DNA from: Acidobacteriota bacterium
Lineage (GTDB): Bacteria > Acidobacteriota > Terriglobia > Acidiferrales > UBA7541
DNA length: 64,000 nucleotides
Assembly (NCBI GenBank): GCA_003167215.1
Contig: PMTV01000055.1
Coordinates: 1 to 64,000 of the forward strand
Direction of reading: 5' to 3'
In this document: in pieces, positions 5,343 through 15,095 of the stretch
Layout of the letters: the number at the start of each line of letters is the position of its first letter
Position numbering within the stretch: the first letter of the stretch is position 1
Program-made: the position numbers and the translations under genes
The notes under the pieces: model-generated
The model's input: only the letters and a program-made list of their open reading frames with translations
Told to the model about the DNA's origin: nothing
Database searches by the model: none

Positions 5343-6109
5343 ACCGCGAAGCCGGAAAGAAAATCCGCGCCGTTATTGTTGACGACGAAGAGCTCGCCCG
5401 CCAGGTTCTTCGCGAATTCCTTGGCGCGCATCCCGAAATCGAGCTCGTCGCCGAGTGCGCCAACGGCTTCGAAGCAGTCAAGTCCGTCACCGAACTAAAG
5501 CCCGATCTGCTCTTTCTCGACATCCAGATGCCCAAGCTCGATGGCTTCGAAGTCCTCGAATTGATCGGCAACGATCTGCGCGTAATCTTCGTCACCGCCT
5601 TCGACAGCTACGCCATCAAAGCCTTCGAAGTCCATGCCGTGGATTATCTTTTGAAGCCATTCGGAGCCGACCGCTTCGAAGCCGCGCTCAATCGCGCCAA
5701 GGAACGCCTCTCTGGCAAATCGCCCCACACCGAGATGCCTCCCGCGGATCTGGCTGCGGCAGCGCGCCCGCCTTCGCAATATCTCGACCGCATCGCGGTT
5801 CGCGATGGCACGCGCGTCTTCATCATTCCAGTCGCAAAGCTCGACTACGTGGAAGCGCAGGACGATTACGTCGCGCTCGCCACCGAAGGCAAAAAGCACC
5901 TGAAGCAGCAGACCATCTCCAGCCTTGAATCCGCGCTCGACCCTTCGCGTTTTCTCCGCATCCACCGCTCCTACATCGTCAACCTGGAGCGCGTCGTCAA
6001 AGTCGAGCCCTACGCAAAGGACACTCACGTCGCTGTCCTCACCAACGGCACACAGCTCCCCGTCAGCCGCTCCGGCTACGCCCGCCTCCGCGCTTTCCTC
6101 GACCGCTAA
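5339..6109 (+). CDS. LytTR-family response regulator
   Basis: 256 residues. The correct start is ATG 5339, overlapping the kinase stop in ATGA; the same frame runs further upstream only as antisense-quality sequence inside the kinase gene. Receiver domain at residues 9-125: acidic pocket D15/D16, phosphoacceptor D61 in LLFLDIQMP, switch Thr in VTAFD, and conserved Lys in YLLKPF. A roughly 30-residue linker leads to a LytTR DNA-binding domain (about 150-256): RIAVRDGTRVFII, VEAQDDYVAL, FLRIHRSYIVNL, and the C-terminal VSRSGYARLRAFL. LytTR proteins bind pairs of direct repeats, which makes the repeat at 3068-3102 a candidate target for autoregulation. The final 52 bp of this gene recur at 6917-6968. 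Confidence 0.93.
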   Translation: MNREAGKKIRAVIVDDEELARQVLREFLGAHPEIELVAECANGFEAVKSVTELKPDLLFLDIQMPKLDGFEVLELIGNDLRVIFVTAFDSYAIKAFEVHAVDYLLKPFGADRFEAALNRAKERLSGKSPHTEMPPADLAAAARPPSQYLDRIAVRDGTRVFIIPVAKLDYVEAQDDYVALATEGKKHLKQQTISSLESALDPSRFLRIHRSYIVNLERVVKVEPYAKDTHVAVLTNGTQLPVSRSGYARLRAFLDR

Positions 6110-6170
6110 AAACCAGGCGCTCGGATCTAGCAAACTTAGGAGTGAACTATCGCCGTGGTACTATCCGCCG
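6059..6170. repeat. Duplicated block, copy 1 (LytTR 3' end plus promoter-like segment)
   Basis: Two sub-blocks recur downstream. 6059-6110, the last codons and stop of the LytTR gene, is identical over 52 bp to 6917-6968. 6133-6170 matches 6997-7034 with 3 mismatches in 38. The spacer between sub-blocks is 22 nt here and 28 nt in the second copy. This copy is the ancestral location, since it contains the functional gene end. Confidence 0.9.
6136..6164 (+). promoter_or_regulatory. Promoter-like element ahead of the 6175 gene
   Basis: TTAGGA (6136-6141), 17-nt spacer, TACTAT (6159-6164). The same arrangement with identical spacing recurs in the second repeat copy. The -10 hexamer ends 10 nt before the GTG at 6175. 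Confidence 0.4.
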
Positions 6171-6174
6171 TATC

Positions 6175-6897
6175 GTGGTGCCGTCAGCCGCAACCATCGG
6201 GGTGGAAGGCTCAACTACCCGCCGGACGGGAAGAAGCGTGATCGGAATAGTTTTTGCTCTGCTTGTCTCCTGCTTAATCACGATTGCCATTCTGCATGCC
6301 CTAGCGCTCCGCCAGCGAGAACAGGCGCGAGCATTCTTGCCGCAATTCGCGGCGCTGAAACTCGGTGAATCCACCTTCGGAGACGCCCAGCAACTTGCTC
6401 GTCAGTTCGGCGGAATACCTTGGTACGTGGCCGAAGCGGATATGCGCTGCAGATTTCAGAAGTGCTCACTAGTATTCAAGTTCGAGAACATGCCGCTCAG
6501 TTATGTCCCGTTCATTCACCACACCGAGCTATTTGGGGAAATTTTAGTGGAGGACGGGATTGTTGTTTCACGCCAGCTAGAATATGAGCGCAATACTCGG
6601 TCGGACTACTATTTTAGATACTTGGTATTCGACAGTGCGGCTCTCCCGGAGAATGAGCACGGATATGGCAAGGGGTACGGCACTTGGAGGCTCAAAGTAG
6701 ACTCACAGGGCACTCCGCATGCGCTTCTAGTGCGGCTAGGACCACAGTCCAGCGTGGCAGACAGGACAAAAGCATATTCGCTCGATCTCTCGTGTCTCGC
6801 ACGGCTATTCGGTTGCGGCGTTCCGTCGGCCTATTATCCACGAGGTATTCCGTATAGCGGATCATCCGCTGGCGGACGGATACCCGATGAGCGGTAA
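6175..6897 (+). CDS. Single-span membrane protein, unknown function
   Basis: About 240 residues; I do not recognise the family. The frame is open from a GTG at 6142, but that codon lies inside the promoter-like repeat, so I place the start at GTG 6175 (GTG 6178 is equally possible). One N-terminal membrane span follows a basic stretch (TTRRTGRSVIGIVFALLVSC), giving an N-in anchor with the rest presumably outside the cytoplasm. The body has several Cys (MRCRFQKCSLVFKF; LSCLARLFGCG) that could form disulfides. The C-terminal tail is Gly/Ser-rich. There is no operon partner in frame; the next gene sits behind a second copy of the same promoter repeat. Confidence 0.55.
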   Translation: MVPSAATIGVEGSTTRRTGRSVIGIVFALLVSCLITIAILHALALRQREQARAFLPQFAALKLGESTFGDAQQLARQFGGIPWYVAEADMRCRFQKCSLVFKFENMPLSYVPFIHHTELFGEILVEDGIVVSRQLEYERNTRSDYYFRYLVFDSAALPENEHGYGKGYGTWRLKVDSQGTPHALLVRLGPQSSVADRTKAYSLDLSCLARLFGCGVPSAYYPRGIPYSGSSAGGRIPDER

Positions 6898-6916
6898 GTC
6901 ATCCGGCTCTGCAACA

Positions 6917-7034
6917 CCCGTCAGCCGCTCCGGCTACGCCCGCCTCCGCGCTTTCCTCGACCGCTAAACCGCGCCCGAGCCTGCACGGGGCTGGGGAACT
7001 TAGTAGTGAACTATCGGTGTGGTACTATCCGCCG
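6917..7034. repeat. Duplicated block, copy 2
   Basis: 6917-6968 is a perfect 52-bp copy of the LytTR gene's 3' end, including the stop codon, stranded between two unrelated small genes. 6997-7034 is a 35/38 match to the promoter-like block 6133-6170. No transposase or terminal inverted repeat is nearby, so a local segmental duplication is the simplest reading. Confidence 0.9.
7000..7028 (+). promoter_or_regulatory. Promoter-like element ahead of the 7036 gene
   Basis: TTAGTA (7000-7005), 17-nt spacer, TACTAT (7023-7028), ending 7 nt before ATG 7036. This places the predicted transcription start at or next to the start codon. Conserved with 6136-6164. Confidence 0.4.
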
Positions 7035-7035
7035 C

Positions 7036-7347
7036 ATGTTGGCGCCGCCTGTCAATATGAAGACATTAAAACCGGGCTCTCTCTTGGTCTACCTGCTGCC
7101 ATTTCTGCATCTATGCGCCTGTCTGATTATCGCGTTCGCACGTCTGGAATCGGGCTGGGGGTATATGGTCCTGGTTGATATCCCGATGTCGGTCATCATA
7201 CTTGCTATCAGCTATAGCTTTGATCACCCACTGCTCCTTTTTGGAACTCTGGGGACTCTCTGGTGGTATTTGCTGAGTCGTGCAGCCCAGATGATCGGCA
7301 CGAGGGTATTTGCAGCCATACGGAATAGCCGTTTCGCACAGAAGTAG
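7036..7347 (+). CDS. Small multi-span membrane protein, unknown function
   Basis: 103 residues from ATG 7036; ATG 7057 (MKTLKPG) is an alternative. The frame stays open back to 7006, but only through the promoter repeat. Three hydrophobic spans can be read: LLVYLLPFLHLCACLIIAF, VLVDIPMSVIILAISY, and LLFGTLGTLWWYLL, followed by a basic tail (RVFAAIRNSRFAQK). No family recognised. Apart from the first residues encoded by the repeat, it shows no similarity to the preceding gene product. Likely an inner-membrane protein; expression could be leaderless. Confidence 0.5.
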   Translation: MLAPPVNMKTLKPGSLLVYLLPFLHLCACLIIAFARLESGWGYMVLVDIPMSVIILAISYSFDHPLLLFGTLGTLWWYLLSRAAQMIGTRVFAAIRNSRFAQK

Positions 7348-10022: not shown

Positions 10023-10520
10023 ATGCTGCAAAAGAAAATCTGCATGCTCGGCTCATTCTCTGTCGGCAAGACCAGCCTGGTCCGCCGCTTCGTCGAAAGC
10101 ATTTTCTCGGATGCATACCAAACTTCGATCGGCGTAAAAATTGATAAGAAAGTGGTCCGCGCCGGCAACGAAGATGTCACCCTCGTTTTGTGGGACATTC
10201 ACGGCGAAGATGTGTACCAGAAAATTCGCATGTCCTATCTGCGCGGCATGTCCGGTTATCTGCTCGCGGTGGACGGAACACGCCGCCAAACGCTCGACGA
10301 CGCTATGGCATTGAATGAACGCGTAATTCAAGAAGCGGGAAAAGTCCCTGCTGTCCTGGTGCTCAACAAGAGCGACTTGACTGAAAAATGGGAAATCGAT
10401 TCCACGCGCGAATCTGAACTAACCACAGCCGGATGGAATATACTTCGCACCAGCGCCAAAACCGGCGCTTCCGTTGAAGAGGTTTTTTCAAAACTAACCG
10501 CCGCCATGCTGGCCGAATAA
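10023..10520 (+). CDS. Ras/Rab-like small GTPase
   Basis: 165 residues: a single P-loop GTPase domain of Ras-superfamily size, with no membrane span or lipidation motif. G1 is GSFSVGKTS (10-18); switch I YQTSIGVKI with S35 at the position of Ras Thr35; G3 WDIHGED (D58, G61); G4 NKSD (115-118); G5 TSAKTG (143-148). By direct alignment of the P-loop, residue 12 is Phe where Ras has Gly12 and Rab has Ser, and residue 62 is Glu at the position of Ras Gln61, so intrinsic or GAP-type hydrolysis may be atypical. It sits 12 nt after the OmpA-domain protein and 1 nt before the hybrid kinase. MglA and Rup-type bacterial GTPases are the nearest concept; the partner genes argue against a standard MglA/MglB pair, since no roadblock-domain GAP is encoded here. 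Confidence 0.92.
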   Translation: MLQKKICMLGSFSVGKTSLVRRFVESIFSDAYQTSIGVKIDKKVVRAGNEDVTLVLWDIHGEDVYQKIRMSYLRGMSGYLLAVDGTRRQTLDDAMALNERVIQEAGKVPAVLVLNKSDLTEKWEIDSTRESELTTAGWNILRTSAKTGASVEEVFSKLTAAMLAE

Positions 10521-13739: not shown

Positions 13740-15095
13740 ATGGTGCAAGTGAAAATGCCCGTCTCTGCCGCCATCGTTGCATTGCTGAGTTTTGCGGCCG
13801 CGCAAACGCGAGAAACAAAAACTCCGGATGCGCCTCGCGAAACCGCAGTGACTTCGTTCTATCGCGATGTCCTCCCAATCCTCCAGCAGCACTGCCAGGG
13901 TTGCCACCGCAGCGGCGAGATTGGGCCCATGCCGCTGGTTACCTATGAAAACGCGCGATCGTACTCTCTTGAAATTGCAAATGTCGCCGCCAAGAAAAAA
14001 ATGCCGCCATGGTTCGCCGATCCGCGCTACGGCCATTTCTCCAATGATCCGTCGCTGACGCCGGAGGAAATTCAAAAGCTCGCAGCCTGGGCGGACGCGA
14101 ATGCCCCGGCAGGCGATCCGAAGGACGCGCCGCTTCCGCGTCAATGGACTGACGGATGGAATATTCCGCAGCCGGACGTAATTGTGAAAATGCCCACGCC
14201 CGTCGCGCTCCCGGCTCACGGCGATGTGGAGTACACATACGAAATCGTGCCCGCCGGATTCACGGAAGACAAATGGGTGCAGATGTCGGAGGTTCGCCCA
14301 TCAAGCCGCGAAAACGTCCATCACGCGGTGGTTTATATCCGGCCGCCGGATTCGAAATGGCTGAGGCACGCTCCCGTCGGCGTGCCGTTCAATGCTTCGG
14401 ACATGACAGATGAAGACAGCCGGCACGGCGCACATTGGACCGACAGCGACATCTTGCTGGTGTACGCGCCGGGAAGTTCGCCGGACCAGTGGCCCGTTGG
14501 GATGGCCAAGTTCGTGCCTGCCAGCTCGGATTTGGTGTTTCAGATGCATTACACCACGCACGGGCATGCGGCTAGCGATCAGACGAGCATCGGGATCGTC
14601 TTTGCCAAGCAGAGGCCCGCGCAGCGCGTGATTACATTGCAGTTGACCAACGACCATTTCGTGATACCGCCGGGCGCGGACGACTATCGAGTGGAGGCGC
14701 GCGGCACTTTACCGAACGACGCGACGCTGCTCAGTTTTTTCCCGCACATGCATCTGCGCGGAAAACAATTCGATTACAACATCGTCAGCGCGAACGGAAG
14801 CATCGAGACTCTTCTGCGGGTGAATTATGATTTTTACTGGCAACTGAGTTATCGGCTGGCGGAGCCGCGATCGTTGAAGGCGGGCACGATGCTGCAGGCC
14901 GTCGCGCTGTATGACAATTCGCGCGGCAATTCACACAACCCCGATCCGGATGCGTCGGTGCGATGGGGGGATCAGACTTATGACGAAATGATGGTCGGAT
15001 TTTTCGACGTTGCGGTGCGCGCCGATCTGGATAAATGGCACTATTTTATCCGGCCTGAGGCGGCACCTGAGAAACCGGCAGGCGAGACACATTAG
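13740..15095 (+). CDS. Cytochrome c - type II copper monooxygenase-like fusion protein
   Basis: 451 residues, exported: N-terminal hydrophobic signal (MPVSAAIVALLSFAAA). Residues 40-130 form a cytochrome c domain with heme motif CQGCH (52-56) and a likely axial Met in KKKMPPW. Residues about 150-440 match the two-subdomain fold of peptidylglycine alpha-hydroxylating/dopamine beta-monooxygenases. All six copper ligands of that family have candidates in the right order and spacing: H194/H195 (VHHAVV) and H270 (QMHY) for CuH; H336/H338 (PHMHLRG) and M417 (YDEMM) for CuM. The covalent heme could supply electrons in place of ascorbate (inference). Substrate unknown. It converges with the tldD/E pair, 11 nt apart, so it stands alone. 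Confidence 0.85.
   Translation: MVQVKMPVSAAIVALLSFAAAQTRETKTPDAPRETAVTSFYRDVLPILQQHCQGCHRSGEIGPMPLVTYENARSYSLEIANVAAKKKMPPWFADPRYGHFSNDPSLTPEEIQKLAAWADANAPAGDPKDAPLPRQWTDGWNIPQPDVIVKMPTPVALPAHGDVEYTYEIVPAGFTEDKWVQMSEVRPSSRENVHHAVVYIRPPDSKWLRHAPVGVPFNASDMTDEDSRHGAHWTDSDILLVYAPGSSPDQWPVGMAKFVPASSDLVFQMHYTTHGHAASDQTSIGIVFAKQRPAQRVITLQLTNDHFVIPPGADDYRVEARGTLPNDATLLSFFPHMHLRGKQFDYNIVSANGSIETLLRVNYDFYWQLSYRLAEPRSLKAGTMLQAVALYDNSRGNSHNPDPDASVRWGDQTYDEMMVGFFDVAVRADLDKWHYFIRPEAAPEKPAGETH

Follow-up and report, generated by a model that had tools for sequence, protein, structure and literature searches.

A 451-residue protein encoded in a 64,000-nucleotide stretch of an Acidobacteriota genome (contig PMTV01000055.1, positions 1 to 64,000; hereafter the window) appears to join, in one exported chain, a c-type cytochrome to the dicopper core of the PHM/DBH (copper type II) superfamily. 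Membership of that superfamily by homology is supported both by the predicted structure and by alignments of relatives, and a heme domain precedes nearly every related bacterial core that was counted. Textbooks present PHM and DBH as copper enzymes that depend on ascorbate. They hold two coppers about 11 Å apart and carry out O2-dependent hydroxylation; in animals, PHM makes amidated hormones and DBH makes noradrenaline. The heme-fused architecture is apparently an undescribed form of this known core, given that no description of such a family was found in the open-licence PMC literature, several of the queries being narrow. The features of the gene are given below, with conservation counted across 124 bacterial cores pooled from full-length, PF01082 and core-only searches.

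13740..15095, + strand: whole gene, a single ATG open frame of 451 aa encoding an exported cytochrome c / PHM-like dicopper protein
13740..13805, + strand: likely Sec signal peptide, residues 1-22, MVQVKMPVSAAIVALLSFAAAQ (read by eye; the model has a low-confidence helix at 10-20)
13848..14165, + strand: monoheme cytochrome c domain, residues 37-142 (domain model; VIA match to PccH, 4rlr)
13893..13907, + strand: heme-attachment motif C52-Q-G-C55-H56 (script check; H56 in 123 of 124 cores, with one gap)
14001..14012, + strand: M88-P-P-W91, probable axial Met and heme pocket (each position in 123 of 124 cores, with one gap; axial role putative)
14172..15023, + strand: PHM/DBH-type double jelly-roll dicopper core, residues 145-428, or 143-436 at its widest (Foldseek, VIA)
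14319..14324, + strand: CuH ligands H194 and H195, PHM H107 and H108 (script check, alignments, conservation)
14547..14549, + strand: CuH ligand H270, PHM H172, in F-Q268-M-H270-Y (script check, alignment, conservation)
14745..14753, + strand: CuM ligands in H336-M-H338, PHM H242 and H244 (script check, alignments, conservation)
14838..14846, + strand: W367-Q368-L, in which Q368 is PHM Q272 (W and Q each in 124 of 124 cores; alignment letters)
14985..14993, + strand: E416-M417-M418 with CuM ligand M417, PHM DEM314C (script check, alignment, conservation)

The N-terminus of the protein resembles a signal peptide; after it come CQGCH (52-56), MPPW (88-91), HH (194-195), FQMHY (267-271), HMH (336-338) and DEMM (415-418), and its only cysteines, C52 and C55, both lie in the heme motif. 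The heme motif and the six copper ligands fall at the numbers given in the preliminary description, as a script check on the translation confirmed, and the pattern of named residues is well beyond chance. One copy of the gene was found in its own genome (3.78 Mb). Routine annotation would overlook the protein because it scores below the Pfam curated cut-offs: PF03712 reaches 19.6 bits against a required 23, and PF01082 gives no match at E up to 1 in the same scan. A PDB sequence search with the single protein returned one weak and unrelated match (3io1, E 0.25), and a plasmid search for relatives matched nothing.

AlphaFold2, given 40 aligned sequences, returned a mean pLDDT of 89.6 and a pTM of 0.85, with the ligand-bearing blocks at 90-98, and the best 31 Foldseek matches to this model in the PDB are all PHM or DBH, with E values from 1.4e-16 (8dsl_A) to 7e-11. 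By VIA the model matches PHM (6ala_A) with a Z of 24.2 over 263 aligned residues (rmsd 2.6 Å, 18% identity) and DBH (4zel) with a Z of 24.0, the next fold being PNGase F at 8.9. The PHM-like fold proposed from the sequence is thus borne out by a superposition on PHM across 263 residues at 2.5-2.6 Å, and no model with the ligands outside copper-site geometry appeared, the Z of 24 coming from the prediction and the pairing of ligands from alignments. A profile of the window's branch finds DBH as its top match, weakly (E 0.027) and with the His ligands aligned, while the profile built from L090-L093, L063 and L066, a sister branch, reaches PHM with an E of 1.8e-10, all copper ligands being in register and the DEM motif shared. 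Through these alignments of relatives, PHM H107, H108, H172, H242, H244 and M314 each pair with a family position, in agreement with the CuH and CuM sets originally assigned. Three elements of the superfamily are present, namely a predicted double jelly roll, a CuH site formed by three His (HH plus H) and a CuM site of HxH plus Met, and the ligand string HHHHHM is complete in 122 of the 124 aligned near-complete bacterial cores. The two incomplete strings are L089, which ends before the Met, and L016, which carries H195Y; in the latter gene (5845-7218) HY replaces HH, placing Tyr at the second CuH His, either as a natural site variant or as a sequencing error.

Compared with PHM, the window protein shares the fold, both ligand sets and the equivalents of Q170 and Q272, but it has a fused c-type heme, it has none of PHM's disulfides, having no Cys beyond the heme motif, it has no known link to ascorbate, and it is changed at R240, N316 and Y318. 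DBH resembles it in fold, in the aligned His ligands and in having an extra N-terminal domain before the core, although that domain is a DOMON domain in DBH and a cytochrome c in the window protein.

Modelled alone from 67 sequences, the heme domain reaches a pLDDT of 87.3, and its best VIA match is PccH of Geobacter sulfurreducens, a stand-alone protein, at a modest Z of 6.5 (74 aligned residues, rmsd 2.0 Å). PccH is also a weak sequence match to the window-branch profile (E 0.027), and the four VIA matches listed all come from proteins with c-type cytochrome domains; Foldseek with the cytochrome domain alone gave nothing significant (best E 1.8). The domain has the attributes of a monoheme c-type cytochrome, namely CxxCH, a probable distal axial ligand and a predicted helical c fold whose structural match is modest, and the assignment is supported by the motif, the VIA Z and the weak sequence matches taken together. 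The presence of M88 in every core that is ungapped there suggests that it is the axial ligand. Residues 111-150, the linker, form a block with a pLDDT of 91-97, and because this linker is confident and the pTM is 0.85 while the core alone makes up only about 294 of the 451 residues, the model suggests that the heme domain is packed in a defined manner rather than floppy. Three Cytochrom_C_asm genes are present in the same genome.

Across 84,980 species genomes, 98 related stretches were found, of which 80 were kept. The PHM-like part is found in 66 of the kept loci (L002-L067), mostly from Acidobacteriota, with a few from Verrucomicrobia and Planctomycetes, one from Bacteroidales and one from an Acidimicrobiia-labelled MAG. 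Another 14 loci (L068-L081) have only the cytochrome region in common with the window protein and were left out of all counts as family members; L068, L076 and L078, when scanned, proved to be PSCyt1 plus WD40 proteins. The full-length profile has matches in 66 of 297 Acidobacteriota genomes, the core-only profile in 41 of 199, and PF01082 exceeds its cut-off in 3 of 199. For the first two profiles, and for the six genomes of other loci described below, the number of matches within a genome is not a number of genes, as one gene can yield two pieces.

The preliminary description's fused c-type heme domain proves to be near universal in the family, as CxxCH lies within 130 residues upstream of 122 of the 124 cores. 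The two remaining sequences are broken: a contig edge cuts L025 within the motif, and the frame of L083 is interrupted. Further cores from six genomes of other loci have CxxCH in 10 of 10 cases, that of L161 having been seen by eye beyond the script's 130-residue window; L154, which lacks CxxCH by script, is a frame cut at the edge of its stretch and is the same gene as L042, already counted. These wide counts cover Acidobacteriota and the six genomes of other loci, and heme-less PHM cores may exist in other phyla. Other attached parts vary. A redoxin (AhpC/TSA) occurs in 8 of the 40 aligned members and EF-hands in 4 of the 40, and L124 and L126 have apparent C-terminal TPR-like repeats by eye; the constant unit is the heme domain plus the dicopper core. 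In L053, L058-L060, L062, L063 and L066 the AhpC/TSA-like redoxin is N-terminal to that unit, with EF-hands in some. One Acidobacteriota genome of 4.3 Mb (G089, L128-L136) contains at least 10 distinct heme plus dicopper paralogues, a strong lineage expansion. Within tandem arrays at L040 (7116-7913) and L154 (2352-3071) there is also a small gene with the same cytochrome c domain and, after it, a short stretch that resembles part of the C-terminal jelly roll and has no copper ligands; its product might carry electrons for the neighbouring proteins or regulate them.

The surroundings of the gene are far less constant. A same-strand gene upstream encodes a 347-aa protein of no confident family, and TldE/TldD-type genes converge on the gene from downstream; the former recurs in 4 of the 66 loci and the latter adjoin the gene in 5 of the 66, both being kept in the closest relatives only. 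No widely recurring neighbour or conserved operon was seen among the 66 loci, and operon context was accordingly dropped as a guide to substrate. Given that no partner recurs widely, the gene may act alone or with unlinked partners. By eye, hemE- and/or hemG-like heme biosynthesis genes lie nearby in 6-7 of the 66 loci; orthologues with such genes, divergently oriented, in their vicinity are those of L012, L018, L024, L028, L031, L033 and L048. Elsewhere in the window, at 10023-10520, a Ras-like small GTPase (PF00071, E 1.3e-29) is encoded, flanked by an OmpA-domain protein on one side and a hybrid histidine kinase on the other.

The reading that we favour, and regard as rather probable, is that of a periplasmic PHM/DBH-superfamily dicopper monooxygenase with a built-in electron donor. 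Following export, the cytochrome c maturation system would attach heme c at C52 and C55, and H56 and M88 would serve as its axial ligands; electrons from the respiratory chain would reach the heme and be handed singly to CuH (H194/H195/H270), and CuM (H336/H338/M417) would bind O2 and hydroxylate a C-H bond of the substrate, perhaps a small organic molecule or peptide positioned between the two coppers, by analogy with PHM and DBH. One published account states that these two enzymes consume two electrons per turnover, entering via the coppers, and that CuM binds O2 (PMC6123673). A covalent heme on the same chain would be a natural donor, and the tether would make ascorbate unnecessary; copper content, heme content, the direction of electron flow and the kind of substrate are inferred. 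In Cellvibrio japonicus, a c-type cytochrome domain, CjX183 of Cbp2D, is reported to reduce copper LPMOs (PMC8981238). CjX183 is likewise a small bacterial c-heme that reduces a copper monooxygenase, although the enzyme is of another type, the LPMOs that it acted upon were separate proteins (PMC8981238), and the donor role here is a proposal. The idea that heme stands in for ascorbate is strengthened by this precedent together with the near-universal fusion.

Several other readings fit parts of the same evidence. A bacterial peptide-amidating PHM, hydroxylating the C-terminal glycine of peptides with the heme as donor, would have the same fold and copper ligands, and TldD/TldE-type peptidase genes do adjoin the window gene, albeit as neighbours in so few loci. 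The equivalents of both PHM second-sphere glutamines are also kept, Q368 in 124 of 124 cores and Q268, which aligns with PHM Q170, in 99 of 124; in PHM, Q170 and Q272 are described as forming, with H108 and two waters, a substrate-side network that substrate binding may require (PMC6123673). What separates the window protein from PHM proper (EC 1.14.17.3) is that R240, N316 and Y318 align with F334, V419 and F421, and across the 124 cores the PHM letters are rare: Arg at the first position and Tyr at the third each occur in 11 of 124, and Asn at the second is outside the eight commonest residues. In PHM these three residues bind the carboxylate of the peptide substrate. Because all three are replaced, the enzyme is probably not peptide-amidating and its substrate is probably not a C-terminal glycine, making this reading unlikely. 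To judge from the aligned residues, the chemistry looks retained while the PHM substrate handle does not, and since the substrate-carboxylate residues are not conserved, the label 'PHM-like' should not imply peptide amidation.

The redoxins found in 8 of 40 aligned relatives lend some weight to a peroxide-driven (peroxygenase) or peroxide-reducing dicopper enzyme in which the heme, and in relatives the redoxin, would handle peroxide electrons, and PHM itself is reported to accept H2O2 in place of O2 plus reductant (PMC6123673). However, the window protein is without a redoxin domain and the constant partner across the family is the heme domain and not the redoxin, and we consider such an enzyme improbable. 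Electrons might instead run in reverse, with the dicopper domain oxidising a substrate or Cu(I) and the heme feeding the respiratory chain in the manner of a dehydrogenase. Small c-hemes fused to periplasmic enzymes do often serve as electron acceptors, but PHM/DBH chemistry uses up electrons, and the CuM ligands, Met included, are conserved along with the second-sphere Gln, so that this direction seems quite unlikely. The least credible alternative is a non-catalytic copper-binding or copper-sensing protein reusing the fold. No substrate is known, and the small tandem-array paralogues of L040 and L154 are without copper ligands; nevertheless, the 124 cores, drawn from distant groups, retain both copper sites together with Q368, and because binding alone would not require all of these, we hold a purely non-catalytic role to be very improbable.

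The monooxygenase reading also bears on the history of the superfamily. In a review from 2020, PHM and DBM are tabulated under eukaryotes only (PMC7435645). Thinning 135 cores to below 62% identity left 62 representatives; together with PHM and DBH, a eukaryotic sample of two sequences, one without its Met region, these make up the 64 tips of an unrooted tree. PHM and DBH (support 98) group with 21 bacterial cores, and the split from the window's branch has a support of 100, although inner supports are 77-90 and the PHM/DBH branch is long (1.2), making long-branch attraction possible. Both bacterial branches, including the one that groups with PHM/DBH, carry the heme domain. The simplest reading of this tree is that the fusion may be old in bacteria and was lost in the eukaryotic enzymes. 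A large bacterial heme-driven family might even be ancestral, with eukaryotic PHM and DBH arising from it once the tethered heme was lost and ascorbate took over as reductant; we think this tentative proposal possible but doubtful.

If the favoured dicopper monooxygenase reading is true, the protein would offer a self-contained system in which to study electron entry into CuH, a possible biocatalyst for ascorbate-free hydroxylation, and a way to learn how the enzymes that make hormones and neurotransmitters originated. More broadly, the family hints at unexplored oxidative chemistry in the abundant Acidobacteriota of soil.
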